Origin: Candidatus Magasanikbacteria bacterium CG11_big_fil_rev_8_21_14_0_20_39_34
Lineage (GTDB): Bacteria; Patescibacteriota; Patescibacteriia; Magasanikbacterales; UBA922
Direction of reading: 5' to 3'
NCBI GenBank assembly: GCA_002787355.1
Contig: PCWN01000005.1
Location: 24,502 to 58,489 of the forward strand
DNA: 33,988 nt
In this document: positions 1,908-25,738 of the stretch, piece by piece
How positions within the stretch are numbered: position 1 is the stretch's first letter
How the letters are laid out: each line of letters begins with the position of its first letter
Program-made: the position numbers and the translations under genes
Notes under the pieces: model-generated
What the model was told of the DNA's origin: nothing
Databases searched by the model: none
What the model saw: only the letters and a program-made list of their open reading frames with translations

Positions 1908-2624
1908 TTAAACCTCAGTGATGGTTTTTTCTTTCTTTGCAAATTCTGCATTTCCCTCTTTTATTGCATCCCGAACCAATCCAACCATAAGTTCAATAGA
2001 TCGAACAGCATCATCATTTGCAGGAATAATATATTCTGCCTTTGCTGGATTTGCATTGGTATCTGCGATACCAACAACAGGAACTCCCGTTCTATTTGCC
2101 TCTACGACGGCTGTTTTTTCACGTTGTAGTGCTGGAATAAAGAGTGCATCTGGAAGACCATCCAAAGAGAGAAGACCTTCGAGATAATGAGACATCTTTT
2201 CAAGTTCTTTTGCAATTTGCAATTGTTCTTTTTTGGTATATTTTTCTAATTCTCCTGAGTCTCGTTGTTCCTTAAGAGATACATACTTCTTGATAAGCTT
2301 TTTGATCTCCACAAAATTGGTAAGCATTCCACCAATCCAACGATCTACGAGATATGGCATTCCACAGTCAATAGCCGCTTTTTTCACAATTTCTTTTGCC
2401 TGTGGCTTTGTGCTTACAAAGAGGATCTTTTGTCCTTTTGCAGCCTTTTCTTTCACAGCCATGAGGGTTTCCTCAAGCTTTTGCTGTGTTTTTTCAAGAT
2501 CAATGACATGAACGCCATTGCGAACCGTAAAGATATACGGCTTCATTTTTGGATGCCAACGTGAGCTTTGATGCCCAAAATGGACACCTGCCTGCAGCAT
2601 TTCGAGTACTGTTGGGTACTTCAT
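1908..2624 (-). CDS. rpsB: 30S ribosomal protein S2
   Basis: Small-subunit protein S2 at the head-body junction of the 30S subunit, needed for S1 docking where S1 exists. The start MKYPTVLEMLQAGVHFGHQ, then RWHPKMKPYIF, VDRWIGGMLTNF and the late motif GIADTNANPAKAEYIIPANDD are family hallmarks. At 238 residues it is full length. An AAAGG/AGGTGG ribosome site precedes the ATG. It is first in the rpsB-tsf operon, behind a consensus promoter and a folded 98-nt leader that ends in the ribosome site, which suggests translational feedback by S2. Confidence 0.97.
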   Translation of the reverse strand: MKYPTVLEMLQAGVHFGHQSSRWHPKMKPYIFTVRNGVHVIDLEKTQQKLEETLMAVKEKAAKGQKILFVSTKPQAKEIVKKAAIDCGMPYLVDRWIGGMLTNFVEIKKLIKKYVSLKEQRDSGELEKYTKKEQLQIAKELEKMSHYLEGLLSLDGLPDALFIPALQREKTAVVEANRTGVPVVGIADTNANPAKAEYIIPANDDAVRSIELMVGLVRDAIKEGNAEFAKKEKTITEV

Positions 2625-2722
2625 AATTTTTCCTTTTATCCACCTTTCTGCTACCTCTTCTTTATGAAAAGGAGGAAAGTTATCCTGAGTGGTCAGGGCA
2701 GAAAGTGTGTGGTAATTTAAGT
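2625..2722 (-). promoter_or_regulatory. Structured rpsB 5' leader, candidate S2 autoregulatory RNA
   Basis: The predicted transcript starts near 2722. An 8-bp stem pairs 2698-2705 with 2644-2651 (CTTTCTGC with GCAGAAAG). It encloses two hairpins: CCTGA/TCAGG at 2684-2697 and CCTC..CTTT/AAAG..GAGG at 2654-2675. The 3' strand of the outer stem runs into the AAAGGTGG ribosome site, so folding would limit ribosome access. This is the layout of a ribosomal-protein leader; binding by S2 is inferred. Confidence 0.55.
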
Positions 2723-2728
2723 GGCCTC

Positions 2729-2757
2729 ATTGTACGCGAAATTGGACAAAATGTCAA
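2729..2757 (-). promoter_or_regulatory. Sigma-70-type promoter for rpsB-tsf
   Basis: On the minus strand TTGACA (2757-2752) and TACAAT (2734-2729) are separated by 17 nt. It is divergent from the promoter at 2809-2835. Confidence 0.8.
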
Positions 2758-2808
2758 GAAAAACCCCATAAAATCGCCTATCCACAAAAATTCATAGCAA
2801 AGAGAATG

Positions 2809-2835
2809 TTGACAAACTAAAAATTGTGCTATAAT
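2809..2835 (+). promoter_or_regulatory. Promoter for the DsbA-like/pilin-domain pair
   Basis: TTGACA at 2809-2814 and an extended -10 TGCTATAAT ending at 2835, spacer 15 nt. The expected start point near 2842 lies only about 12 nt before the ATG at 2854, so the mRNA would be almost leaderless. Confidence 0.75.
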
Positions 2836-2853
2836 ATATGCAAAATCCGCATT

Positions 2854-3600
2854 ATGCCCTCAAACTATCCACAAACTACAGAACCCTCAAAAAACGGAGG
2901 TATTACCCCTATTATCTTTATTATACTCCTCATTGTAGTCCCTATATTCCTGCTTACCCTCTATTACAGTTGGCAGATAAAGCAGGGAAAGGGAGCAGAT
3001 ATAGTAAAAGAACTCCAAAATAGTCAGCTCAGTAGATCCACAAAGCTTCAAACAACCAACTCACAGAAACCAGTTTCATCCCTCAAGTCCTTTATTAAAG
3101 ACTACAGCCCTAAAAAAGGGTCCAAGGATGCAAAAGTTACCATACTTGCCTTCATAGACTTTGAATGCCCCTATTCTCAAGAAAGTTACGCCACTTTCCA
3201 AAAAGTCATTGAAAAATATGGCAAAGACACGTTTATTGTATTTAAAAATCTCCCAATAGATGAACTGCATCCAGACGCAACCACGACTGCTCTTGCAGCA
3301 AGTTGCGCAAATGAGCAAAATGCTTTTTGGGACTATTACAATCTGCTTTTCACCCTGAAAAAATTTGATAGTGCATCCCTGCTTGGGTATGCCAATAGTT
3401 TGCATTTGAATACAACAGAGTTTCAAAGCTGTATAACAAATGAAAAATACCTCCCCCAAATCCAAAATGATATCCTCGATGCCATAAACTTAGGTGTCCA
3501 GGGAACCCCTACCTATTTTGTAAATGGTATAAAAATTGAAGGGGTGTACGATCTCAATACTTGGGATAAAGTTATAATGAACGAACTTACAAAAGTATGA
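2854..3600 (+). CDS. Membrane-anchored DsbA-like thioredoxin-fold protein
   Basis: A DsbA/BdbD-type (Thioredoxin_4) extracytoplasmic protein of 248 residues. Residues 17-39 form one membrane anchor, followed by a linker and the thioredoxin fold from about residue 85. The active-site region reads FIDFECPYSQ (Cys105, Ser108), so the second Cys of the usual CxxC is Ser. The cis-Pro loop is GTPTYFVNG (Pro219). Two other Cys (151, 193) lie in the helical insertion. It may act as an isomerase, a reductase of mixed disulfides or a non-redox chaperone rather than a classic oxidase. The ATG at 2854 is chosen because it is the first after the predicted transcript start. The stop overlaps the next ATG (ATGA), next to a Cys-rich secreted protein that is a plausible client. 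Confidence 0.85.
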   Translation: MPSNYPQTTEPSKNGGITPIIFIILLIVVPIFLLTLYYSWQIKQGKGADIVKELQNSQLSRSTKLQTTNSQKPVSSLKSFIKDYSPKKGSKDAKVTILAFIDFECPYSQESYATFQKVIEKYGKDTFIVFKNLPIDELHPDATTTALAASCANEQNAFWDYYNLLFTLKKFDSASLLGYANSLHLNTTEFQSCITNEKYLPQIQNDILDAINLGVQGTPTYFVNGIKIEGVYDLNTWDKVIMNELTKV

Positions 3601-5144
3601 AAATAAAATTTTTTATTGTTCTTGTTCTTCTTACAACTTTTTTCCTACCGCATGTGGCAAATGCAAGTGTAGATCAACGTTGTTTTTCCAAAAGCCAATG
3701 TATCCAACTTCGCAAAGACATGAACCTTCCTTCTAACCAAATAGAAAATGGTTTCTATACCGGGAAGAAAGAAACGTTAGAAGCTTGTGGAGAAAAGAAT
3801 GGAAAGGGAGAGCTACTCGGATTTTGTCTTCCTGCCGGTACCGTGACAACACAAGTCACTTTTGGAGATTCCAATTCATTTCTCAATTTGGGTGAATTCA
3901 TGCAAAAAATGTACAAATATGGGATAAGTGCCGGTATCTTCTTGGCAACTGTTATGATTATCTTTGCCGGACTGCAGTGGACAGCTTCTGCCGGAAATCC
4001 TGGAGCCATATCTTCTGCCAAAAAGAAAATTTCCGGCTCACTGGTAGGTCTTATCTTTTTGCTTTTTTCTTATAGTATTCTTCATACTATAAATCCATAC
4101 CTCGTTAAACTTCGCCTTCCTCAAACATGGATGATTAACACAGCCGGGTTGGCTCCTGTATATTGTTCGGAGGTGAATACCCCTATGGCACTTGCTGTAA
4201 AACAAGAAGAAAAAAAACTTGCCAATTACAAAGTAGATGTTATTGATGCCATAAAAAATAAACGTATTAAAGAATCACCAAAGTATGAACTGGATAAAGA
4301 TCAAACGACTTGTGAAAGCGATTATTTTGTAGACGGCTCTGGTGGAGCAACCTGCACCGGAACGGTTTGTCCAGGAGGACTCTTGTGTTATAAAAAAGGA
4401 CTTGAAGTAGCACAAAAAAACTGCTATCCTGGAACCTTCGCTGGGGTTATCACAAATAAAAATCTGTCCCAAAGGTTGGGATATACTCTTGCTCAAAGTG
4501 ATGCTCACGTAGGAGCTTTTTTGGGGACAGTAACGGAATGGTGGGAGTGGCCCTGGATTGAAGAAAATAGTTACCCAATTAACCTTGCGATTGGGTGTCG
4601 AAATGGTGACTTTACCTACGCAGATAAAGACGATGTAGTTGACTATCAATATGTTGTTAATCCTGTCAGCAACAAAAGCAATGAGACACTCACCCAGTGG
4701 TACTCCATCCTCCTACCCCATGTAGAGGGAACAATAACACGAGCAGAAAATTATTGCTCCAAACGAGGAGGAGTTCGAGGCTATGCCCTGACAGTCAATA
4801 TGAATGAAACAGCTGATCCGAGTAATGAACGACATTATCTCGGAAGAGTTGGTAGAAACTCCGTTGATCTTGGAGATGATGAAGCCTTCCAAATCAATCT
4901 CGCACGAGGTTGGAATACATTTACTGACGTACTCCTTACAGAAGATGATCTAAAAAATGGAAACGTTATAGATATAGATACTTCCAAGATAGTCGATATT
5001 GATACCGCATTTTCTGCATGGGGAGAAGGAAAAGATCTTCTCTATGAAAAATATTATGGATATCTTGGATACTGTGGTAATCATGCGTGGTTCAAAAATG
5101 GAGTAGAAAAAATACTAAAATGTTTAGCAAAAACTGAAAATTAA
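3597..5144 (+). CDS. Secreted membrane protein with T4SS-pilin-like domain and large Cys-rich C-terminal region
   Basis: Residues 1-23 look like a cleavable signal peptide (VANAS site). Residues 108-127 and 148-165 are two membrane segments around the motif GNPGAISSAKKKISGSLVG. This two-helix pattern matches the small T4SS-pilin-like proteins (TrbC/VirB2-like) that are abundant in CPR genomes. Those proteins usually have little beyond the helices; here about 340 more residues follow, with many Cys (such as SEVNTP, GTVCPGGLLCY and GYCGNHAW contexts) and an acidic DIDTSKIVDIDT stretch. I do not recognise this C-terminal region. It is translationally coupled to the DsbA-like gene, which suggests disulfide-dependent folding outside the membrane. 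Function unknown: a surface or pilus-related role is inferred. Confidence 0.75.
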   Translation: MKIKFFIVLVLLTTFFLPHVANASVDQRCFSKSQCIQLRKDMNLPSNQIENGFYTGKKETLEACGEKNGKGELLGFCLPAGTVTTQVTFGDSNSFLNLGEFMQKMYKYGISAGIFLATVMIIFAGLQWTASAGNPGAISSAKKKISGSLVGLIFLLFSYSILHTINPYLVKLRLPQTWMINTAGLAPVYCSEVNTPMALAVKQEEKKLANYKVDVIDAIKNKRIKESPKYELDKDQTTCESDYFVDGSGGATCTGTVCPGGLLCYKKGLEVAQKNCYPGTFAGVITNKNLSQRLGYTLAQSDAHVGAFLGTVTEWWEWPWIEENSYPINLAIGCRNGDFTYADKDDVVDYQYVVNPVSNKSNETLTQWYSILLPHVEGTITRAENYCSKRGGVRGYALTVNMNETADPSNERHYLGRVGRNSVDLGDDEAFQINLARGWNTFTDVLLTEDDLKNGNVIDIDTSKIVDIDTAFSAWGEGKDLLYEKYYGYLGYCGNHAWFKNGVEKILKCLAKTEN

Positions 5145-14408: not shown

Positions 14409-15551
14409 ATGAAAAAAATAATGAAACTTTCTTTTTTTATGATTTTGCTTATATCTGGATGTGCAAACACATCCTCAAAAGAAACCAGTTCACCCGTACA
14501 TACCATCCCTATTGGCTTTATCGGTCCTCTCACGGGGGATGCATCCAGTTATGGCATTGCAACCAAAAACGCCCTTGAGCTTGCTGTACAGGATATAAAC
14601 ACATCCGGTGGAATACATGGAAATCCAGTAAAAATCATCTATGAAGATGGAATGTGTAATGGGACTGGAGCTACTGCTGCAGCACAAAAGCTTATCAATG
14701 TAGATAAAGTTCAGTATATAATTGGAGGTGTTTGTAGTGGCGAAACACTGACAGCCGCCCCCCTTGCAGAACAAAGTCATACCATTTTATTTTCTCCCTC
14801 TTCTGGAAGTCCGGACATTAGTACTGCAGGCGATTTTATATTTAGAAATTTTCCATCCGACTCCAGTTCTGCAACAAAACTTGCCTCTCTTGCTCTTAAA
14901 AAGGGATATAATACGTTCGCTATTTTAAGCGAATCAACAGACTACGCTCAGGCATTTTCCAATAAATTTGCTGATACTTTCCAGAAAAGTATGGGGACTA
15001 TATCTTTACAAGATTCTTATCCATCTACAGAAACGGATTGGAGATCTGAACTCACCAAAATTAAAAATAGTGATGCAAATGCAATACTTGTAGTGCCACA
15101 AACTCCTGTAAAGCTGCTTCTCATACTCCGGCAAATGCACGAACTGGGTATGAAACTCCCACTTTTTACCAGTGAATCTATTGCTTCCGAAACTATTCTT
15201 CAACAAAATCCAAGTTTGGCAGAAGGTGCTTATTTTGCAGAGCCACTATTTGACGACACACGTGCACAAACAAAATTATTCCTCAAAGAATATAAAACAA
15301 AATACGGAAACCTGGGTGAGCTTCCTCCTATATATATTGCCACAGCCTATGATGCCCTCTTCATTGCCAAGGAAGCTATGGAGTCCGTTGGAGAAGACAC
15401 GAAAAAAATAAAAGACTATCTCTACCAGATAAAAAATCGCGAAGGTGCTGCTGGTGTACTTACCATTGATCAAAATGGAGATGCGGAATTTGAATATGTA
15501 GTAAAACAAATTCAAAATGGCAAGGGACAAACAGTTGAAGACGTCCCATAA
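14409..15551 (+). CDS. ABC-type substrate-binding lipoprotein, Leu/Ile/Val-binding (Peripla_BP_6) family
   Basis: Extracytoplasmic solute-binding protein of 380 residues. The lipobox LISGC ends at Cys18, so it should be a membrane-anchored lipoprotein. The mature part starts IPIGFIGPLTGDASSYGIATKN, the typical opening of branched-chain amino-acid-binding proteins, followed by VKIIYEDGMCNGTGATAAAQ, IIGGVCSGETLTAAP and the late PPIYIATAYDALFIAKEAM. No permease or ATPase gene is in the window, so it is either an orphan component using a distant transporter or a receptor. It is divergent from a TrmB regulator. Ligand not certain; amino acids or similar small polar molecules are likely. Confidence 0.88.
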   Translation: MKKIMKLSFFMILLISGCANTSSKETSSPVHTIPIGFIGPLTGDASSYGIATKNALELAVQDINTSGGIHGNPVKIIYEDGMCNGTGATAAAQKLINVDKVQYIIGGVCSGETLTAAPLAEQSHTILFSPSSGSPDISTAGDFIFRNFPSDSSSATKLASLALKKGYNTFAILSESTDYAQAFSNKFADTFQKSMGTISLQDSYPSTETDWRSELTKIKNSDANAILVVPQTPVKLLLILRQMHELGMKLPLFTSESIASETILQQNPSLAEGAYFAEPLFDDTRAQTKLFLKEYKTKYGNLGELPPIYIATAYDALFIAKEAMESVGEDTKKIKDYLYQIKNREGAAGVLTIDQNGDAEFEYVVKQIQNGKGQTVEDVP

Positions 15552-16834: not shown

Positions 16835-17563
16835 TTATGGAATATATTCAATATCATCTACATCTAATCTTCTTATCCCACTATCCTGTACCATTTCTTC
16901 GTATACTTGAGCTACCAGACCGGGGATTCGTCCAATCACAAATATACCACGTCCAAGCCTACTATCAAAACCCATATCACAAAGAATTGCGCCGATTGCT
17001 CCATCTACATTCAACGGAAGCTTCTTTGAAGAGATTTTGTTAATTTCTGTATGAACAGATTTGGCAAATTTACAATGCATTCCAAAAAATCCAAGTTCTT
17101 CTGCTTTTTTCAAGAGAACCTCGGCACGTGGATCTTTTTCTTCAAATACCTTGTGTCCAAAACCAGGGGCATATTTTTTTTGCTCTTTCATGGATTTCAA
17201 GAGCAAAGATACATCAGAGGTTTCAACATTCTCGTAAAAAAAATGCATAGTAGCTTCAAGTGCCACACCATGCCTTTCACCAAAACCCAAAATACCCGCT
17301 GCAAGCGCACAATGCATGGGGTTATTTGCAGAAGCAGAAATTCGCGCGGTCAGTGCAGAAGTGGTAGCCGGACCATGATCAATAATAGATGTAAAAATAG
17401 CATTCATCATCTGCTCTTCTTTATCTCTTGGAAGTCTCCCCTGTAGAATAAGAAAAATGGTCTGGGTAAACGTATTGTTTTCAATAAGTTCTGTCAGTTC
17501 TTTCCCTCGAACTCTTTCCGTTCCGTTTGTTTTAACGTCCGTTATAGATGTTTGAAATTTCAT
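16835..17563 (-). CDS. Citryl-CoA lyase-like protein (citrate-synthase fold)
   Basis: A 242-residue citrate-synthase-fold protein, far shorter than citrate synthase (about 370-430) and like the lyase part at the C-terminus of ATP-citrate lyase or free Ccl. Catalytic equivalents are present: His98 in GFGERHGVA, His137 in GFGHKVFEEKDPRAE and Asp187 in LNVDGAIGA. It would split citryl-CoA into acetyl-CoA and oxaloacetate. The N-terminus (TDVKTNGTERVRGKELTELI) matches the linker region of AclA. It directly follows the CoA-ligase alpha subunit with a 25-nt gap. Condensation in the other direction, or use of methylcitryl-CoA, is possible. Confidence 0.78.
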   Translation of the reverse strand: MKFQTSITDVKTNGTERVRGKELTELIENNTFTQTIFLILQGRLPRDKEEQMMNAIFTSIIDHGPATTSALTARISASANNPMHCALAAGILGFGERHGVALEATMHFFYENVETSDVSLLLKSMKEQKKYAPGFGHKVFEEKDPRAEVLLKKAEELGFFGMHCKFAKSVHTEINKISSKKLPLNVDGAIGAILCDMGFDSRLGRGIFVIGRIPGLVAQVYEEMVQDSGIRRLDVDDIEYIP

Positions 17564-17588
17564 ATGTGTTGCTTATGTCTCTTATATT

Positions 17589-18485
17589 TTATGCATAGGG
17601 TTGCACAAGTTGTACCAAATCCTCATAGGTTTGAGCTATCATAACCCCAACTGAAGCAAGCGCTGCAGATTTTTCTTCTGCACCTTGTCCACGCGCTACA
17701 ATAGCCCCCGCATGACCAATATTTATTCCTTCTGGGAGTACTTTTGTAAACTTCCCACCGATATATATGGCAAGTGGTTTGGTAAATCGTTTTTGTAGTA
17801 TCATATTTACTATTTCAAACTCGTAACTTCCCCCATGCTCACCGTAAATTACCACGGCCCTTGTTTGAATATCCTGCTCAAACATTTCCAAAAGATCGGC
17901 ATAGGTAGTTCCCATGAGGAGATCCCCTCCCACATGCACAGCAGTGCTCTGTCCCATTCCCGCTTTGCGTATCTGCCAACTGACTTCGTTTGTCATTCCA
18001 CCCGAACGTGAAATGATTCCAATGGATCCTGGTTGAAAAATTTGATCTGCCAACTCTTTTGGTCCACCAACAACACCAATACGTCCAATTCCGGGAGCTA
18101 TGAATCCCAAAGAACTTGGGCCAATAATCCGGATCCCTCTTTCCTTTGCAGCCGCCAAACAATAGGCGGTATCCTTTATAGGGATACGCTCTACAATAGT
18201 ATTAATAAGTGGAATATCACTTTCAATAGCTTCCAAAAAAGCCTCTTTGGCGGCAAATGGAGGCACATAGATGGTGGTAATATCTATTGGTCCAAGTTCT
18301 GCCTTTGCATCCGCTACAGAGTTAAAAACAGGCCTTCCTTCAACCATTTCACCAGCTTTCCCAGGACGCACACCTCCAACAACTTGCGTTCCATAAGAAA
18401 GCATTGATTGTGCCGCCTTTTGCCCTTCTTTTCCGGTAATACCTTGAATTAAAACACGAGTTTCTTTTGTAAGGAGAATAGACAT
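17589..18485 (-). CDS. CoA-ligase alpha subunit, citryl-CoA synthetase small-subunit-like
   Basis: A 298-residue SucD-like subunit. It has the CoA-binding fold with ITGKEG (16-21), IGPSSLGFIAPG (121-132), SRSGGMTNEVSWQ, and the phosphohistidine motif NIGHAGAIVARG with His258. The Glu of GEHGGSYE (216) is the residue that steadies the phosphohistidine. The extra ITGKEGQKAAQSMLSYG start is that of SucD, but the VGVMIAQTYEDL end and gene context are those of ATP-citrate lyase. It sits 3 nt after the ATP-grasp subunit gene. Likely role: transfers phosphate to citrate to form citryl-phosphate and then citryl-CoA. Succinyl-CoA synthetase is the main alternative. Confidence 0.8.
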   Translation of the reverse strand: MSILLTKETRVLIQGITGKEGQKAAQSMLSYGTQVVGGVRPGKAGEMVEGRPVFNSVADAKAELGPIDITTIYVPPFAAKEAFLEAIESDIPLINTIVERIPIKDTAYCLAAAKERGIRIIGPSSLGFIAPGIGRIGVVGGPKELADQIFQPGSIGIISRSGGMTNEVSWQIRKAGMGQSTAVHVGGDLLMGTTYADLLEMFEQDIQTRAVVIYGEHGGSYEFEIVNMILQKRFTKPLAIYIGGKFTKVLPEGINIGHAGAIVARGQGAEEKSAALASVGVMIAQTYEDLVQLVQPYA

Positions 18486-18488
18486 ATT

Positions 18489-19664
18489 TTATTGTTTATG
18501 AATTGCTTCTGCCAGAATACGAGCACTTTCTGTCATGCTGGTTTCTTTTCCAAAAACTTGCATATTGAGAGAATTTCTTTTTTTACATTCTTCAACCAAG
18601 GCAAAGGCCTCTGCACTTTCCGGTCCATCCCTTCTTACCACAATTGGATATCTTGGCTGTACTTCGTCGAGTGCATCTATAATGCCCAAAAAAGTCTCTT
18701 TCATATTGGTGAAGTTCGCTACTACCCCACACATCCACAACCCACGTAAACCAGGTTTGGATAAAACAATTTTTGCCAACTGATATACTTTCTCGCGTGG
18801 AGGGTTCCCTGAGTACTCCGTATAATTTGCGGCCTGTAACCCCACATCCATTAACGCGTCCATATTGGCAATACTTGCCCCACCTCCATTGAGAATAAGT
18901 GCAACATCCCCATCAAATTCAATATACTTTCCCGCGGTACCTTGGTAATATTTTTCTCCCTTATCAATTTCTTGTACAGCAATTTCGCGATCCGTGGGCT
19001 GTCTTCCCATCATAGTACGCGGCTCAAATGTTTCCCAATCCTCATGCCGAAAAAAAGCATCATCATCCAAAGCAATCTTTGCGTCAGCTGCGACCCATGC
19101 ATTTTCTAAAGTTTTTACTAAAGGATTAATTTCTACCACACGGCAATCCTCTTTCAAGAAACAATTCCATAATGATTGGAATATATGTTGCAATGATTCA
19201 CCAAGAAAGTCCGCATCCTTGAGTTCAAGTTTCTCATTTGAGATATCAAGCAAGCATTTATATATTTTTGACTCATCCACATCCTCTATATCCATTCCCC
19301 CTTCCTCACTATAAATAAGCACTGGCTGTTTTGCATTGGTATCATAGGTAATAGACACATAATGTTCAGAAAGAATGGAAAGTTTCTCCTCAATACGTAC
19401 TGATGCAACATACTGTCCTCGAACTTCCATGGAAAACAGATCTTCAACGGCTTCTTTTATTTCATCTTTTCCACTACAAAACCGAATGGCATTATTTTTT
19501 CCGCGTTTTCCCGAGAGAACCTGTGCCTTTACTACTACATCAAAAGAATTTAAACTTTCAAAATGCGAATCTACATTATCTCCACGACGTATAACAACCC
19601 CTTTTGGTATTTTTATACCATACTTTTCAAATAAGGCTTTCCCCTCAAATTCGTATAAATTCAT
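18489..19664 (-). CDS. ATP-grasp CoA-ligase beta subunit, AclB/CcsA-like
   Basis: A 391-residue ATP-grasp subunit. It begins NLYEFEGKALFEKYGIKIPKG, with KAQVLSGKRGKNNAIRF as the ATP-binding loop and RVVEINPLVKT as the metal site. The C-terminal ligase domain has LILNGGGASIANMDALMDVG, ANYTEYSGNPP and VVANFTNMKETF. These last three match ATP-citrate lyase rather than SucC, whose equivalents are NGAGLAM and NFLDVGGGA. It would activate citrate with ATP together with the next gene. The start at 19664 abuts the GNAT stop (TAATATG), so it is coupled to that gene. Confidence 0.82.
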   Translation of the reverse strand: MNLYEFEGKALFEKYGIKIPKGVVIRRGDNVDSHFESLNSFDVVVKAQVLSGKRGKNNAIRFCSGKDEIKEAVEDLFSMEVRGQYVASVRIEEKLSILSEHYVSITYDTNAKQPVLIYSEEGGMDIEDVDESKIYKCLLDISNEKLELKDADFLGESLQHIFQSLWNCFLKEDCRVVEINPLVKTLENAWVAADAKIALDDDAFFRHEDWETFEPRTMMGRQPTDREIAVQEIDKGEKYYQGTAGKYIEFDGDVALILNGGGASIANMDALMDVGLQAANYTEYSGNPPREKVYQLAKIVLSKPGLRGLWMCGVVANFTNMKETFLGIIDALDEVQPRYPIVVRRDGPESAEAFALVEECKKRNSLNMQVFGKETSMTESARILAEAIHKQ

Positions 19665-19665
19665 A

Positions 19666-20028
19666 TTAGTATTCTTCTTGTAAAGGTTTAGATCCATTTA
19701 AATTCATTCGAAATTCTTTTCCCCAGTCCTCAAATCCAACTTTTTTGTACCACTCATGAACTCCCTCATTGGAATACCGACTGGTTGCAATAAATTTATA
19801 GCAATCAAGTTCTTTTACTTTTTTCATTATAGATTTCAATAGCTCTTTGGCATATCCTTTTCCGCGATACTCCGGGTCAACATAAACATTTTCCAAAAGT
19901 GCATACGGCTCTTTATGCCTATTATTTTGGATGATAACAACAAATGCAAACCCAACCGTTTTGCCATCTTCTTCTATATTGAATTCTATAGCATAAGAGT
20001 CCTCCCTTTTTTTATTTACAATTTTCAT
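19666..20028 (-). CDS. GNAT-family N-acetyltransferase
   Basis: A 120-residue acetyltransferase of the GNAT fold. The acetyl-CoA pyrophosphate loop is VYVDPEYRGKGYAKELLKS (about 65-83), preceded by the beta bulge strand YALLENVYV and followed by ATSRYSNEGVHEWYKKVGF, the usual beta5-alpha4 segment. The substrate is not evident. Its stop overlaps the start region of the citrate-activating subunit, which would supply acetyl-CoA. The directon also holds GlmS and a GlmU-type uridylyltransferase that lacks the acetyltransferase half, so glucosamine phosphate is one candidate substrate. Confidence 0.85.
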   Translation of the reverse strand: MKIVNKKREDSYAIEFNIEEDGKTVGFAFVVIIQNNRHKEPYALLENVYVDPEYRGKGYAKELLKSIMKKVKELDCYKFIATSRYSNEGVHEWYKKVGFEDWGKEFRMNLNGSKPLQEEY

Positions 20029-20132: not shown

Positions 20133-20546
20133 TTATTGTCTTTTTTCATCTTGGTAATTTCTCAATACTTTTGAAAGCATAAGCATTAAAATAACCAAAG
20201 GAAGAATGGGGGGTATCTTACCTGACCCCAATGCTCCGACGACTATCAATATCCAAAAGAATAAACTGAGATAGTAATAAAACTTTTTTCCTTTTTGGAT
20301 GGACAAAAGACTTACCATACAAGCAAAAAGAGAAAGAATGGAGATAGTGGCAGCCTCCCCGACTTGCTGATAGGACAAACTATCCTCGGTAATAAATTGT
20401 GAACGAAAACCCAGCCAAAAAGGATCCAGGTGTGTCGGATTCTGCCCGGCAATCCATAAAAAAATTATAACAAGCCCCACAGAGAGTATAAGCTGCAAAA
20501 GCAATAATTTTTTTAACCAAAATACCATTTTGGAAGCTTCTATCAT
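20133..20546 (-). CDS. Small membrane protein of unknown function
   Basis: A 137-residue protein with about four hydrophobic spans: LLLLQLILSVGLVIIFLWIAG, ISILSLFACMVSLLSI, YYYLSLFFWILIVVGAL and ILPLVILMLMLSKVL. The second loop holds DPFWLGFRSQFITEDSLSY. I do not recognise a family. The ATG overlaps the stop of yvcK (ATGA), which supports this start and ties it to the envelope and amino-sugar genes upstream. Confidence 0.7.
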   Translation of the reverse strand: MIEASKMVFWLKKLLLLQLILSVGLVIIFLWIAGQNPTHLDPFWLGFRSQFITEDSLSYQQVGEAATISILSLFACMVSLLSIQKGKKFYYYLSLFFWILIVVGALGSGKIPPILPLVILMLMLSKVLRNYQDEKRQ

Positions 20547-21529
20547 ATTTTTTCCCTTATTATATCATAGAGTCTCTTTCCAAGCGCATGGTGATCTATG
20601 CCACCGCCTGATTTTTCTACATCAAACCCAAATACCCTATGTGAGGGGAGATTTTCAACATCAAAGCTCAAGACTCCCCATTCTTTTTCTTCGTAATGAG
20701 ATTGTTCATCCTGTGAAAGGATATGGTCATTATAGACAACTACATCCAATTTTCTTGGCAAATACTTTTCCAAAGCTTCAACCCGTGCACTCAAATTTTG
20801 AGGAGCGTATTCACCGGATAGTGAGTACTTATTCCCAGCAAAATAGAGAATCTTTGCGTGAGACTGTGCAATCGCCTCATAGGTTCCATCTGCCAGAAGA
20901 GATGCAATATTACTGGTATAGAGATCCCCCGGACCAATAACAATGACATCTGCAGAAGTGATCGCCTTCTTTGCTCCATCATATAATCTTCCAGATCTTT
21001 CCAACCAAGCACGTTGAATAAGGAGACCTTCCTTCCGGTTATGCGGCTCGTCTATTTCCCCTTCACCATGAATTTGAGTCCCATCACTTAACTCTACATT
21101 GAGATCGGTCATATCCAGTGTTGCTGGAAAGACTTTCCCATGTATCTCAAAAATTTTTCCAAGTGCATCAATGGTAGAGACTAAATCTCCACAGTAATTT
21201 GCAGAAAGTGCAATCATTAAACTTCCTATATTGAGCCCATTGAGTTTGTCTTCTGTTTCAAAACGTTTTTTATAAAAAATTTCTTTCAAAAGATCAAAGT
21301 CATATTTGGACAGTGCCATAAGCACACGCAAAATATCTGCCACTGGAAGCTGTTTTAACTCTTCACGAACAATGCGTGATGATCTTCCAGAATCACTCAT
21401 TGAAACTACCGCAGATAGGTGAATATCTTGATATTCTTTTAACCCCAACAAAACCAGAGAAGTCCCATTGGCTCCACCAAAGACAACCACTTCAGAAGAA
21501 CGTTCATTTTGCATATTTTTATTTTCCAT
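20543..21529 (-). CDS. yvcK: YvcK/CofD-like gluconeogenesis factor
   Basis: A 328-residue member of the YvcK family, which in Bacillus binds UDP-sugars, is needed for growth on gluconeogenic carbon and affects cell-wall precursor flux. Motifs: FGGANGTSLVLLGLK (usual GGGTGLS), MSDSGRSSRIVREEL (usual ADDGGSS), GLNIGSLMIAL and VIGPGDLYTSNIASLL, in the right order. The ATG at 21529 or 21514 may be used. Placed 24 nt after glmS, which fits the known link of YvcK to GlmS and UDP-GlcNAc levels. The Gly/Asp changes in the first two motifs are unusual but keep the small/acidic pattern. Confidence 0.87.
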   Translation of the reverse strand: MENKNMQNERSSEVVVFGGANGTSLVLLGLKEYQDIHLSAVVSMSDSGRSSRIVREELKQLPVADILRVLMALSKYDFDLLKEIFYKKRFETEDKLNGLNIGSLMIALSANYCGDLVSTIDALGKIFEIHGKVFPATLDMTDLNVELSDGTQIHGEGEIDEPHNRKEGLLIQRAWLERSGRLYDGAKKAITSADVIVIGPGDLYTSNIASLLADGTYEAIAQSHAKILYFAGNKYSLSGEYAPQNLSARVEALEKYLPRKLDVVVYNDHILSQDEQSHYEEKEWGVLSFDVENLPSHRVFGFDVEKSGGGIDHHALGKRLYDIIREKI

Positions 21530-21553: not shown

Positions 21554-23398
21554 CTACTCCACCGTAACCGATTTTGCCAAATTTCGTGGTCGATCTACAT
21601 CTCTTTTCAAAGCAACCGCAACATAGTATGAGAAAAGTTGCAATGGAATAGTATTCAACAATGGCTCCAAAAGTTCCTTCATTGCAGGAACATAGATAAC
21701 ATCTTCAGCTAATTCTTTTGCCCTTTCATCCCCCTGAGTTGCAATGAGAATAACCTTTCCTTTTCGAGCCCGAATCTCTTCTATATTACTACGCATTTTT
21801 TCATAGAGTTGATTCTGTGGCATTATAGCAAATGTTGGAAAATCTTCCGAAATAAGAGCCAGTGGCCCATGTTTCATTTCTCCACCCGGGTAGGCCTCCG
21901 CATGAATATAGCTTATTTCTTTCAACTTTAAAGATCCTTCTAGCGCAACGGGGTAGTTGATACCTCGACCAAGAAAAAGGAAATTTTTATAATCTTTATA
22001 CTTTTCCGCAATTTCTTTTATAGAATCTTTTTGAGATAATATCCAGTTCATTTTTTCTGGAATCTCCAAAAATGCATTCAGCATACGCTGACCGGTAGCA
22101 ATACTTACACGTCGTGCACGTCCAAATTGCAATGCATATAATAATGCAACGGTTACCATATTTGTATAAGCTTTCGTAGACGCAACGGCCAACTCCGCAC
22201 CGGCATGAATATAGGTTCCCCCATCTGTTTCTCGAGAAATAGTAGAACCAATAACATTCACAATACCTCGAACGAAAGCACCTTTTCGTTTTGCTTCACG
22301 CAGAGCCGCCAAAGTATCCGCCGTCTCTCCGGATTGTGACATGACGAATACTAATGTTTTTTCATCAATAATAGGATCTCGATAACGAAATTCACTCGCG
22401 ACATCAACCTCGGCGGGAATGCCTGCCAACCGTTCAAAAGCATACTTTCCCACCATTCCAGCGTAGCTTGCCGTGCCACAGGCAATAAAAATTACCCGAT
22501 TGATATCTCGCATCTGCTGCTCGGTCATATTGAGCCCACCAAGGACTGCCGTTCCCTCTGCCATGTTGAACCTTCCACGAATGGCATCTTCAAAAACCGT
22601 GGGCTGGTCATGAATTTCTTTAAGCATAAAATGGGGGAATCCTTGTTTTTCTGCTTGTTCATCATTCCAATGAATTTCTTCAACTTTCTTTGAAACAATT
22701 TCATCTTTGAGAGTGAAAAGTCTTACATTATTTTCCTTCACTTCTGCAATTTCTCCATCATCTAAAAATAATACGTCTCTTGTGTAGGCCAAAATAGGAG
22801 TAGCGTCACTTGCAATGTAATTTTCATCCTTCCCAACGCCTACAACAATAGGACTTCCCATACGCGCAGTAATGAGGCAATCCGGTACGTCTTCGTGCAT
22901 AACCACAATTCCATAGGTTCCCTTCACATGAGAAAGTCCACATCCCACAGCTTTACGAAGACCTTCACAATTTTTTTGTTCTTGAAGGTCAAACTCTCGT
23001 TCTATAAGATGTGCTAAAACTTCTGAATCTGTTTCAGAAGTAAAATGATGTTCCGGACCAAGCTGATCTTTCAGTTCGCGATAATTTTCTATAATTCCAT
23101 TATGAACCAACACAAGTTTCCCTTTATTTCCCGTATGAGGATGCGCGTTCAACTCCGTTACCCCACCATGTGTGGCCCAACGTGTATGTGCAATTCCGAC
23201 ACTCCCAGGTAAATGAGAAGTTTTCATCTTTTCTGCCAAATTTTCAATCTTTCCAACACATTTTGTCATAGCAAGCGTGGAATGATCTGAAATTGCCATT
23301 CCACTACTATCATAACCTCTATATTCAAGACGTCGAAGCCCCTGCAATAAAATGGGCGCAGCTTGTCGTTTTCCAATATAACCTATTATTCCACACAT
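21554..23398 (-). CDS. glmS: Glutamine--fructose-6-phosphate aminotransferase
   Basis: Makes glucosamine-6-phosphate from fructose-6-phosphate and glutamine, the committing step to UDP-GlcNAc. The N-terminal glutaminase has the catalytic Cys2 (MCGIIGYIG) and AHTRWATHG. Two SIS isomerase domains follow, with IACGTASYAG, SQSGETADTLAALREAK, and the C-terminal DRPRNLAKSVTVE carrying the Schiff-base Lys. At 614 residues it is full length. A 13-bp palindrome lies just upstream, but there is no room for a glmS ribozyme. It sits between a GT2 gene and yvcK. Confidence 0.97.
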   Translation of the reverse strand: MCGIIGYIGKRQAAPILLQGLRRLEYRGYDSSGMAISDHSTLAMTKCVGKIENLAEKMKTSHLPGSVGIAHTRWATHGGVTELNAHPHTGNKGKLVLVHNGIIENYRELKDQLGPEHHFTSETDSEVLAHLIEREFDLQEQKNCEGLRKAVGCGLSHVKGTYGIVVMHEDVPDCLITARMGSPIVVGVGKDENYIASDATPILAYTRDVLFLDDGEIAEVKENNVRLFTLKDEIVSKKVEEIHWNDEQAEKQGFPHFMLKEIHDQPTVFEDAIRGRFNMAEGTAVLGGLNMTEQQMRDINRVIFIACGTASYAGMVGKYAFERLAGIPAEVDVASEFRYRDPIIDEKTLVFVMSQSGETADTLAALREAKRKGAFVRGIVNVIGSTISRETDGGTYIHAGAELAVASTKAYTNMVTVALLYALQFGRARRVSIATGQRMLNAFLEIPEKMNWILSQKDSIKEIAEKYKDYKNFLFLGRGINYPVALEGSLKLKEISYIHAEAYPGGEMKHGPLALISEDFPTFAIMPQNQLYEKMRSNIEEIRARKGKVILIATQGDERAKELAEDVIYVPAMKELLEPLLNTIPLQLFSYYVAVALKRDVDRPRNLAKSVTVE

Positions 23399-23457: not shown

Positions 23458-24312
23458 CTAATCTTCATTGTACTCGGGAAAATATTTATATCTTGCAGGT
23501 TTTTCAAGACCTTCTTCCACTAATTTTTGAAGTCTAGTGTACTTTTCTACTCTTTCTGGCCACCAATTTTGACCCTGCATAAGAGAATCCTCTTTATGTT
23601 TTTTATAAATAAAATCAAATGCATTTGCCCAATCCCCATACGTTGCATTGGAACACATCCCTTCTGTACTTCCATATCGCTGTGTGTAGTAAACTAAAGG
23701 CTCCATGACAAAAACAAATCCATCCGGTTTTACATTCCCCAACATCAGCAAAAAGTCCCAATCTTCAATATAAGATAAAGTGACATCCCAAAAAATGTTT
23801 CCCTGTACAAAATCTCTTTTGTGAAACAGACCGCTACTGGTTGTCTTTACTTTCCAATGGTAATAATCCTGTAAAGTAGGTGCCTGCGTACAGAGAACTT
23901 CTGCTGGCTTCTCTTGCAGAATATTCAAATTTTTGTCTACCAAAATAATATGCCGTATTTGGTTCACAATCCCAAAACAGGCTTGCTCATTATTTTGAAA
24001 AGCAACCTGAATATGTGAAAGAAAATTTGGCAAAACAGAGTCATCACTATCCAGATACACAATAAGATCCCCTTTTGCCGCCATGAGTCCTGCATTGCGT
24101 GCAGATGAAGCACCAGAATTTTTTTGATAAATATAACGAAGTCTTTTCTCATACACCTGCATATCATGAACCACAGTCATAGTATTATCCGTAGAACCGT
24201 CATCTACAATAATGACCTCAAAATGAGAATAGTCTTGTGCAAAAATACTTTCCAAGGATTTTACCAGGAGATTTGCACGATTATACGTTGGGATAATTAT
24301 AGAAAATAACAT
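23458..24312 (-). CDS. GT2-family glycosyltransferase
   Basis: A 284-residue GT-A-fold transferase. FSIIIPTYNRANLLVKSLES opens the nucleotide-sugar domain. IIVDDGSTDNT and NSGASSARNAGL follow, then the DxD metal site in VYLDSDDSVLP. The ED of YIEDWDFLLML fits the catalytic base of GT2 enzymes. No membrane span is seen, so it acts at the cytosolic face on lipid-linked or protein acceptors. The donor sugar is unknown; the neighbouring GlmS and uridylyltransferase suggest a UDP-sugar made in the same operon. It ends 59 nt before glmS and starts 3 nt after the HAD gene. Confidence 0.88.
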   Translation of the reverse strand: MLFSIIIPTYNRANLLVKSLESIFAQDYSHFEVIIVDDGSTDNTMTVVHDMQVYEKRLRYIYQKNSGASSARNAGLMAAKGDLIVYLDSDDSVLPNFLSHIQVAFQNNEQACFGIVNQIRHIILVDKNLNILQEKPAEVLCTQAPTLQDYYHWKVKTTSSGLFHKRDFVQGNIFWDVTLSYIEDWDFLLMLGNVKPDGFVFVMEPLVYYTQRYGSTEGMCSNATYGDWANAFDFIYKKHKEDSLMQGQNWWPERVEKYTRLQKLVEEGLEKPARYKYFPEYNED

Positions 24313-24315
24313 ACA

Positions 24316-24966
24316 CTATTGATCCAAAAGACCAAATGAAAAATCTACTAATGAATCTAAAATATAGTCAGCATCTTCAAACTCTTTTTTGTGACGTATT
24401 TCTTTCGTAGGAACAGCTACACATTTCATACCCGCAGATTTTGCCGCCTGAACGCCCGCAATGGAATCTTCAAAAACCAAACAATGTTCTGGTGATACAT
24501 GCAATTTTTTTGCAGTGGTGAGATACACACCAGGATGCGGTTTCCCAAAGGGTTCATTTTCCGCTGAATATATGACATCCAAGCACTCTTTTAGACGAAA
24601 TTTATCAACTACAGCGTCAATCACGCGCATATAGGAAGAAGATGCAATTGACATTGGAATTTTTCTTTCACAAAACAAATTGAGGAGTTCCTGTACTCCT
24701 GGCATAAGTTCCCCCTTTGCATGAATTCTTTCAATCACAGCATCCATGATGGCATTGCTAAGATTTTCTTTCTCTTCCTGGTTACCACCAAATTTACCAA
24801 TCCAATGTTCTACTACCACGTCCACCCTCATCCCCATAGTTTCAAAACAGTACTCTTCACGAAAAGGATATCCCCACTTTTTAAATGTTTCAACTTCAGA
24901 CTCACGCCAAAGTGGCTCACTATCTATGAGCAGTCCATCCATATCAAAAATAATTGCCTGTGCCAT
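24316..24966 (-). CDS. HAD hydrolase, beta-phosphoglucomutase/YniC-like
   Basis: A 216-residue HAD protein with motif I FDMDGLLIDSEP (nucleophile Asp and acid/base Asp), a helical C1 cap (WRESEVETFKKWGYPF to ERIHAKGELMPG), motif II SIASSSYM, motif III Lys in FGKPHPGVYL, and motif IV VFEDSIAGVQAAKSAGM. This is the subgroup with beta-phosphoglucomutase and sugar-phosphate phosphatases such as E. coli YniC. It may act as a hexose-phosphate phosphatase or mutase. In this operon a sugar phosphate is the likely substrate. Four nt separate it from the uridylyltransferase gene. Confidence 0.87.
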   Translation of the reverse strand: MAQAIIFDMDGLLIDSEPLWRESEVETFKKWGYPFREEYCFETMGMRVDVVVEHWIGKFGGNQEEKENLSNAIMDAVIERIHAKGELMPGVQELLNLFCERKIPMSIASSSYMRVIDAVVDKFRLKECLDVIYSAENEPFGKPHPGVYLTTAKKLHVSPEHCLVFEDSIAGVQAAKSAGMKCVAVPTKEIRHKKEFEDADYILDSLVDFSFGLLDQ

Positions 24967-24970
24967 ATTT

Positions 24971-25738
24971 TTATTTTAAAAGTTTCTGTGCAACTTCTAG
25001 ATCATCTTTTGTGTTTACCCCAATTGCCTCCATAGGATCAATTGCAATAGAAGAAATTTTTTCGTGATTATCTATAGCCATTTGTAAAAGGTCTGTAAGA
25101 TAGTATTCCCCTTGTGCATTGTCGGTCGTGAGTTTGTCTATATGACCCCACAGCCATTCTGAACGAAAACAAAAGTAGCATGGATTCAATTCTTTTATTT
25201 CCAACTCCTCCGGTGTACAATCTTTTTTCTGAACATCCCGTGCAATGTGCCCATCTTGCTCACGACGAATGATACGACTGAAGCTATAAAATGGTGCATA
25301 CTTCCCCTCAAAATCTGGAACTGTGATGGTCATGAGTGTTATCGCATTTTCTCTTTCCACATGTCTTTCAACTAAACGAAAAATAGAATCACTGGAGACA
25401 AACGGCATATCTCCGTACAAGACAACCACGTGTTCAACTTTCCCTTCTAAAATCTCGCGCGCCATAGAAGTTGCATGACCCGTACCTAGTTGCTCACTTT
25501 GTACCACATATCTTGCCCGATCCCCCAAGTGATCTTGTACATAACTATGTTTGCTACTGACCACAAGAACCGGCTTTTCACATATTCCCGTTTCTTCAAC
25601 GTGAGTAACCACATGATCTACCAGAGGTTTTCCATCAAGCATGTGCATTACCTTTGGGATATCACTATTCATTCTTGTTCCGTGGCCTGCCGCCAAAATG
25701 ATTGCTCCAATTTTAGGATGTGAATTTTTTTGCAACAT
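24971..25738 (-). CDS. Stand-alone GlmU-type nucleotidyltransferase (N-terminal domain only)
   Basis: A 255-residue NTP transferase matching the uridylyltransferase half of GlmU: IILAAGHGTRMNSDIPKVMH, VVQSEQLGTGHATSMARE, VVVLYGDMPF, the Asn of ELNPCYFCF, and TDNAQGEYYLTDLLQMA with a final EAIGVNTKDDL. It should join UTP to GlcNAc-1-phosphate or a similar sugar-1-phosphate. The left-handed beta-helix acetyltransferase half of bacterial GlmU is missing, and the downstream frame is another gene. Its 5' end overlaps the upstream HAD gene by 26 nt. Another enzyme must supply the acetyl step if the product is UDP-GlcNAc. Confidence 0.85.
   Translation of the reverse strand: MLQKNSHPKIGAIILAAGHGTRMNSDIPKVMHMLDGKPLVDHVVTHVEETGICEKPVLVVSSKHSYVQDHLGDRARYVVQSEQLGTGHATSMAREILEGKVEHVVVLYGDMPFVSSDSIFRLVERHVERENAITLMTITVPDFEGKYAPFYSFSRIIRREQDGHIARDVQKKDCTPEELEIKELNPCYFCFRSEWLWGHIDKLTTDNAQGEYYLTDLLQMAIDNHEKISSIAIDPMEAIGVNTKDDLEVAQKLLK

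Follow-up and report, generated by a model that had tools for sequence, protein, structure and literature searches.

An unfused citryl-CoA synthetase and citryl-CoA lyase in a UDP-GlcNAc operon of Candidatus Magasanikbacteria: a proposed acetyl-CoA supply for amino-sugar synthesis

Results

Genes at the locus

The window (the whole stretch of DNA analysed, 33,988 nucleotides) carries a tight UDP-GlcNAc operon, the tail of which is a three-gene citrate-cleaving module (Table 1). The genes are ordered GlmU half, HAD phosphatase, glycosyltransferase, GlmS, YvcK, membrane protein, GNAT and CcsA-CcsB-CCL, all on the minus strand. The upstream genes overlap by at most 4 nt or lie at most 104 nt apart, the GNAT gene ends 1 nt ahead of CcsA, and the gaps inside the module are 3 nt (CcsA-CcsB) and 25 nt (CcsB-CCL). 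The full ORF of CcsA covers 19697-18489; the ATG at its residue 12 (position 19664), which is also where the homologues begin, lies 1 nt past the stop codon of the preceding gene. Almost the same gene order was observed in a Candidatus Magasanikbacteria MAG (L003).

The initial annotation had described the module as lying next to gluconeogenic genes. A class I aldolase and FBPase are indeed found 8-11 kb upstream of CcsA, but the immediate neighbours are UDP-GlcNAc genes. GlmS, YvcK and an acetyltransferase (GNAT or GlmU C-half), none of them mentioned in that annotation, are the neighbours that recur from family to family; gluconeogenesis is not supported as the main context. On its plus strand, the window also encodes a 515-aa protein (3597-5144) whose similarity to the T4SS_pilin family PF18895 stays below threshold and, downstream of the module, a binding protein of the periplasmic amino-acid type (14409-15551) that starts like a lipoprotein.

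Table 1. Genes of the citrate-cleaving module and the UDP-GlcNAc operon, with positions in the window.
Feature	Position	Strand	Basis
CCL, citryl-CoA lyase, citrate synthase fold	16835..17563	-	NF004869 over cut-off; PDB 6hxp; His98/His137/Asp187; tree
CcsB, citryl-CoA synthetase small subunit	17589..18485	-	GHAGAI with phospho-His258, SGGMT loop; outside SucD 100/100 (tree)
CcsA, citryl-CoA synthetase large subunit	18489..19664	-	Pfam ATP-grasp_2 and Citrate_bind; PDB 6hxq_B; AclB/CcsA-type motifs; tree
Small GNAT acetyltransferase, about 115-120 aa, proposed glucosamine-phosphate N-acetyltransferase	19666..20028	-	Pfam Acetyltransf_1; GNA1 among profile matches
Small membrane protein, 137 aa, between YvcK and GNAT	20133..20546	-	ORF
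YvcK/CofD-like protein (family named UDP-GlcNAc-binding)	20543..21529	-	PF01933; TIGR01826 182 bits, just below cut-off 196
GlmS, glutamine--fructose-6-phosphate transaminase	21554..23398	-	TIGR01135 784 bits, cut-off 418
Family 2 glycosyltransferase	23458..24312	-	PF00535
HAD-family phosphatase	24316..24966	-	NF008087 210 bits, cut-off 191; recurs in relatives
GlmU N-terminal (uridyltransferase) half only	24971..25738	-	Covers positions 2-237 of 447 of NF010934

Identity of the three proteins

The motifs and residues first reported for these proteins (GGGASIANMD, ANYTEYSG, VANFTNM and GHAGAI; His98, His137 and Asp187) were all found on the minus strand. By Pfam, CcsA consists of ATP-grasp_2 and Citrate_bind and CcsB of CoA_binding and Succ_CoA_lig, while CCL, 242 aa in length, has the citrate synthase fold. 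The family matches far exceed chance. CCL scored 276 bits against the NCBIfam citryl-CoA lyase model NF004869 (cut-off 212), and its top PDB match was the Hydrogenobacter CCL (6hxp, 1e-63; next best 1e-19). CcsA matched the citryl-CoA synthetase large subunit 6hxq_B (2e-64) ahead of AclB (2e-45) and SucC (2e-42). CcsB matched SucD (3e-65) ahead of the CcsB structure 6hxq_A (9e-59) and AclA (7e-41), and judged by these scores it is the least specialised of the three subunits.

The CcsA motifs GGGAS, ANYTEYSGNPP, VANFT and RRDGP are common to AclB/CcsA and missing from SucC and MtkA. CcsB carries GHAGAI and SGGMT, and SucD has SGTLT at the corresponding loop. His98, His137 and Asp187 were invariant across all 33 unfused CCL homologues aligned, whereas Phe occupies position 98 in the ACLs of human, Chlorobium and Methanosaeta, as it does in 11 of 12 AclA fusions from CPR. 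The ORFs, family and PDB matches and trees support the unfused citrate-cleaving module that had been proposed; the three genes very probably encode a citryl-CoA synthetase (CCS) and a separate citryl-CoA lyase with intact catalytic residues, for which acetyl-CoA and oxaloacetate would be the expected products. Plasmid citryl-CoA lyase-like proteins of Halomarina and Cupriavidus (L149, L150) were found to lack equivalents of His98 and Asp187, and on a Polymorphobacter plasmid (L152:2842-6833) a 900-aa hypothetical protein is encoded beside a protein whose annotation names the ACL citrate-binding domain.

Distribution and phylogeny

Of 380 Patescibacteria genomes sampled evenly, 26 matched the lyase model, whether with a separate lyase, a fused AclA or a citrate synthase, and 23 genomes of a same-class sample of 381 were over the lyase-model cut-off. 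Trees were rooted on citrate synthase (lyase) or SucCD (ligase subunits), with Aquificota represented by one reference set. The fused CPR proteins and the ACL references formed one clade in the lyase (100/99), small subunit (100/100) and large subunit (100/99) trees. The unfused proteins fell outside this clade and outside the outgroups in all three trees, and they surrounded the fused clade in the CcsB tree, which was rooted on SucD. CCL fell in a set containing the Hydrogenobacter CCL (84/94). CcsA and CcsB were placed outside SucCD and ACL, without a settled order relative to the single Hydrogenobacter reference.

The subunit phylogeny proposed as a check in the initial annotation thus put all three proteins outside SucC/SucD, the citrate synthases and the fused ACLs. 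Membership of the citrate synthases was rejected from the tree split (100/97) and the length of CCL, against about 370-430 aa for the full-length enzymes; membership of SucCD or Mtk was rejected from the citrate-type motifs and the separation of the ligase subunits from SucC/SucD and MtkA/MtkB (100/100).

The module had been suggested to be either ancestral-type or independently split. Its SucD-like and citrate synthase-like parts are separate ORFs, not one chain. Because the unfused proteins lie outside the fused clade, which is itself nested among them in the CcsB tree, an older unfused type is the simpler reading, compared with fission of AclA. The independent split was rejected, since the proteins never fell inside the fused clade and CCL has His98 instead of Phe. 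It has been proposed that ACL arose from CCS and CCL by fusion (PMC5441870). A divergent clade of unfused CCS/CCL was also noted (L041, L042, L096, L097), with lyases of 191-236 aa and without a link to GlmS or an acetyltransferase.

In previous work, a two-subunit ACL was described in a gracilibacterium, for which external citrate was proposed, and ACL was called rare in CPR (PMC6851277); enrichment of aclAB was reported in Saccharimonadia (PMC12577380). Our literature search, thin on subscription journals, found no paper on unfused CCS/CCL in Patescibacteria and none linking CCS/CCL with UDP-GlcNAc genes.

Recurrence of the operon link

Of the 34 unfused loci compared, which represent 16 families, 16 (7 families) had GlmS on the same strand at a distance of up to 6 kb, and 17 (6 families) had YvcK in the same-strand neighbourhood. 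In 19 loci (10 families), an acetyltransferase was encoded no more than 3 kb away, either a GNAT of the type seen here or a hexapeptide (LbH) protein of the GlmU type. The probability that 7 of the 16 families would show the GlmS link by chance was roughly estimated at 3e-8. About half of the unfused loci showed no GlmS link, the four of the divergent clade among them. Among 13 fused loci, GlmS was adjacent on the same strand in one (L046, 3 nt) and on the opposite strand in one (L045).

The acetyltransferase appears to be exchangeable. In loci lacking the GNAT, a stand-alone GlmU C-half can lie beside CcsA or CCL (L033, L087 and L093, and L080 by similarity); that of L033 corresponds to positions 249-438 of TIGR01173, and those of L087 and L093 are of the archaeal-GlmU type.

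The presumed acetyl-CoA source varied as well. Relatives without the citrate module retained the order of GlmU half, GlmS, YvcK and GNAT. Threonine dehydrogenase and Kbl convert threonine to glycine and acetyl-CoA, and Tdh-Kbl genes were present in that operon in four module-less relatives (L132, L134, L137, L142), three of which (L132, L134, L137) also have 2-oxoacid:ferredoxin oxidoreductase (POR) genes there. Tdh-Kbl was found together with CCS/CCL in L080, L087, L090 and L091. Within the family and order, POR was present in 4 of 16 genomes with the citrate module vs 13 of 18 without it (Fisher p 0.015, kinship unaccounted for); a comparison of the module and POR in independent pairs yielded only 2 supported pairs and was uninformative.

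The neighbouring GNAT

An orthologue of the GNAT protein is present in 26 of 34 relatives. Its profile search placed GNA1 structures among the top matches, alongside other matches, and its structure is a generic GNAT fold that is uninformative on the substrate. Besides the GlmU N-terminal half, the source genome contains one further weak GlmU-type match, so that a hexapeptide acetyltransferase may be encoded as well. From its sequence and position, we propose this GNAT as a candidate glucosamine-phosphate N-acetyltransferase.

Metabolic setting of the genome

The source genome is 1.18 Mb in size and 99% complete. It contains no citrate synthase, and CCL is its only citrate-synthase-fold protein. 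Aconitase was found in 0 of 44 genomes of the group, including the source genome, and in 14 of 14 controls, in agreement with the earlier view of this lineage as lacking a TCA cycle. PDH E2 was likewise found in 0 of 44 genomes (controls positive), and AMP-forming acyl-CoA ligases in 7 of 44, the source genome not among them.

At L155:3643-8880, the source genome has consecutive genes for ADP-forming acetate-CoA ligase, 2-oxoacid:ferredoxin oxidoreductase (as a gamma-alpha fusion plus beta) and flavodoxin, likely an acetate-forming energy module. The presence of POR and acetate-CoA ligase led us to drop the idea of citrate as the only acetyl-CoA source in this genome; citrate may be one of two such sources. 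In the family and order, most module-bearing genomes lack both POR and the acetate-CoA ligase.

A search for citrate transporters had also been recommended. No member of the PF03600 family was found in the source genome. In L091, a PF03600-family transporter (2584-3861, minus strand) is located directly downstream of CCL; it was not counted as a citrate transporter since its best NCBIfam matches were MamN and ArsB, both below cut-offs.

Discussion

Comparison with known systems

The module resembles CcsA/CcsB and CCL of Hydrogenobacter thermophilus (PDB 6hxq, 6hxp), which are the nearest matches of known structure to CcsA and CCL, in having three separate polypeptides with the same domains, His98/His137/Asp187 and the phospho-histidine. 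It differs in that its host is a heterotrophic CPR bacterium without aconitase, its genes form one tight operon with UDP-GlcNAc genes, and its CcsB is without the specialised sequence of the Hydrogenobacter small subunit. With the two-subunit ACL (AclA/AclB of Chlorobium and the fused CPR forms; PMC6851277, PMC12577380) it shares homologous domains in the same order and the same overall reaction, but it is unfused, has His and not Phe at position 98, and lies outside the fused clade in every tree. The two ligase subunits agree with SucCD and MtkAB in fold and mechanism, but they carry citrate-type motifs and form a separate branch. In eukaryotes, cytosolic ATP-citrate lyase supplies acetyl-CoA to GNA1 for UDP-GlcNAc; the acetyl-CoA-dependent acetylation of glucosamine-phosphate in that route is the step that we propose for the GNAT. 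In contrast to the eukaryotic route, the enzymes that make the acetyl donor would be encoded in the operon of the acetyltransferase itself, and the candidate GNAT has only about 115-120 aa.

Proposed role of the module

We propose that citrate is imported from outside the cell, that CcsA and CcsB would convert citrate, ATP and CoA to citryl-CoA through phospho-His258, and that CCL would cleave citryl-CoA to acetyl-CoA and oxaloacetate. An external source of citrate would be required because the source genome has neither citrate synthase nor aconitase. The main purpose would be anabolic, in that the adjacent GNAT would use the acetyl-CoA to acetylate glucosamine-phosphate in the synthesis of UDP-GlcNAc for the cell wall. 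This acetyl-supply role is suggested by the way the operon is built, by its repeated occurrence in several families and by the replacement of acetyl-CoA sources and acetyltransferases among loci. Counting against it are the second possible acetyl-CoA source in the source genome (POR with acetate-CoA ligase), the lack of a PF03600 transporter there, the generic fold of the GNAT and the many unfused loci that have no GlmS link. As a whole, we regard the splitting of imported citrate to supply acetyl-CoA for UDP-GlcNAc synthesis as the probable explanation.

The module may instead serve general citrate catabolism, in which the ADP-forming acetate-CoA ligase would turn the acetyl-CoA into acetate and regain the ATP, the oxaloacetate would go to pyruvate, aspartate or gluconeogenesis, and the position in the glm operon would be incidental or regulatory. 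The acetate-CoA ligase of the source genome and the FBPase and class I aldolase upstream are consistent with this, and a gracilibacterium with a fused ACL was interpreted likewise (PMC6851277). However, POR and acetate-CoA ligase are missing in most module-bearing genomes of the family and order, and the link with GlmS and an acetyltransferase was found repeatedly across several families, so that we consider general catabolism unlikely. There is only a slight chance that the ligase has a different substrate, such as succinate or malate: CcsB alone matches SucD best, but the citrate-type motifs of CcsA and CcsB are absent from SucC/SucD and MtkA/MtkB, the trees place both outside SucCD and Mtk, and a citryl-CoA lyase is always paired with the ligase.

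The overall reaction of citrate cleavage is reversible in principle, and the POR of the source genome could make acetyl-CoA, from which, with oxaloacetate, the enzymes would form citrate and ATP. Without aconitase, however, citrate would be a dead end, POR is missing in most carriers, and an acetyl-CoA consumer is encoded in the operon; the chance that the module runs in reverse seems slighter still. The enzyme type is the same as that of Hydrogenobacter, but a Hydrogenobacter-like reductive TCA cycle for CO2 fixation is hardly conceivable here and was rejected, because with aconitase missing from all 44 genomes a non-homologous replacement would be required.

Significance

The role for which CCS/CCL is chiefly known is citrate cleavage in autotrophic bacteria that use the reductive TCA cycle. 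Our results place the unfused form in many families of minimal bacteria that lack the TCA cycle and probably depend on hosts, and tie it to amino-sugar synthesis, which would give a concrete use for acetyl-CoA in such cells. More tentatively, UDP-GlcNAc operons of TCA-less Patescibacteria may be equipped with a dedicated but exchangeable acetyl-CoA supply (CCS/CCL, Tdh-Kbl or 2-oxoacid:ferredoxin oxidoreductase) and an equally exchangeable acetyltransferase (GNAT or GlmU C-half), with acetyl-CoA needed mainly for the cell-wall amino sugar. The fused ATP-citrate lyase clade is also represented in the phylum, and the many unfused sequences gained here can be used for testing the proposed fusion of CCS and CCL to ACL. 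Citryl-CoA lyase genes in metagenomes should not be equated with CO2 fixation. For the bacteria that carry the module, our reading predicts that citrate would be taken up from their hosts or surroundings.
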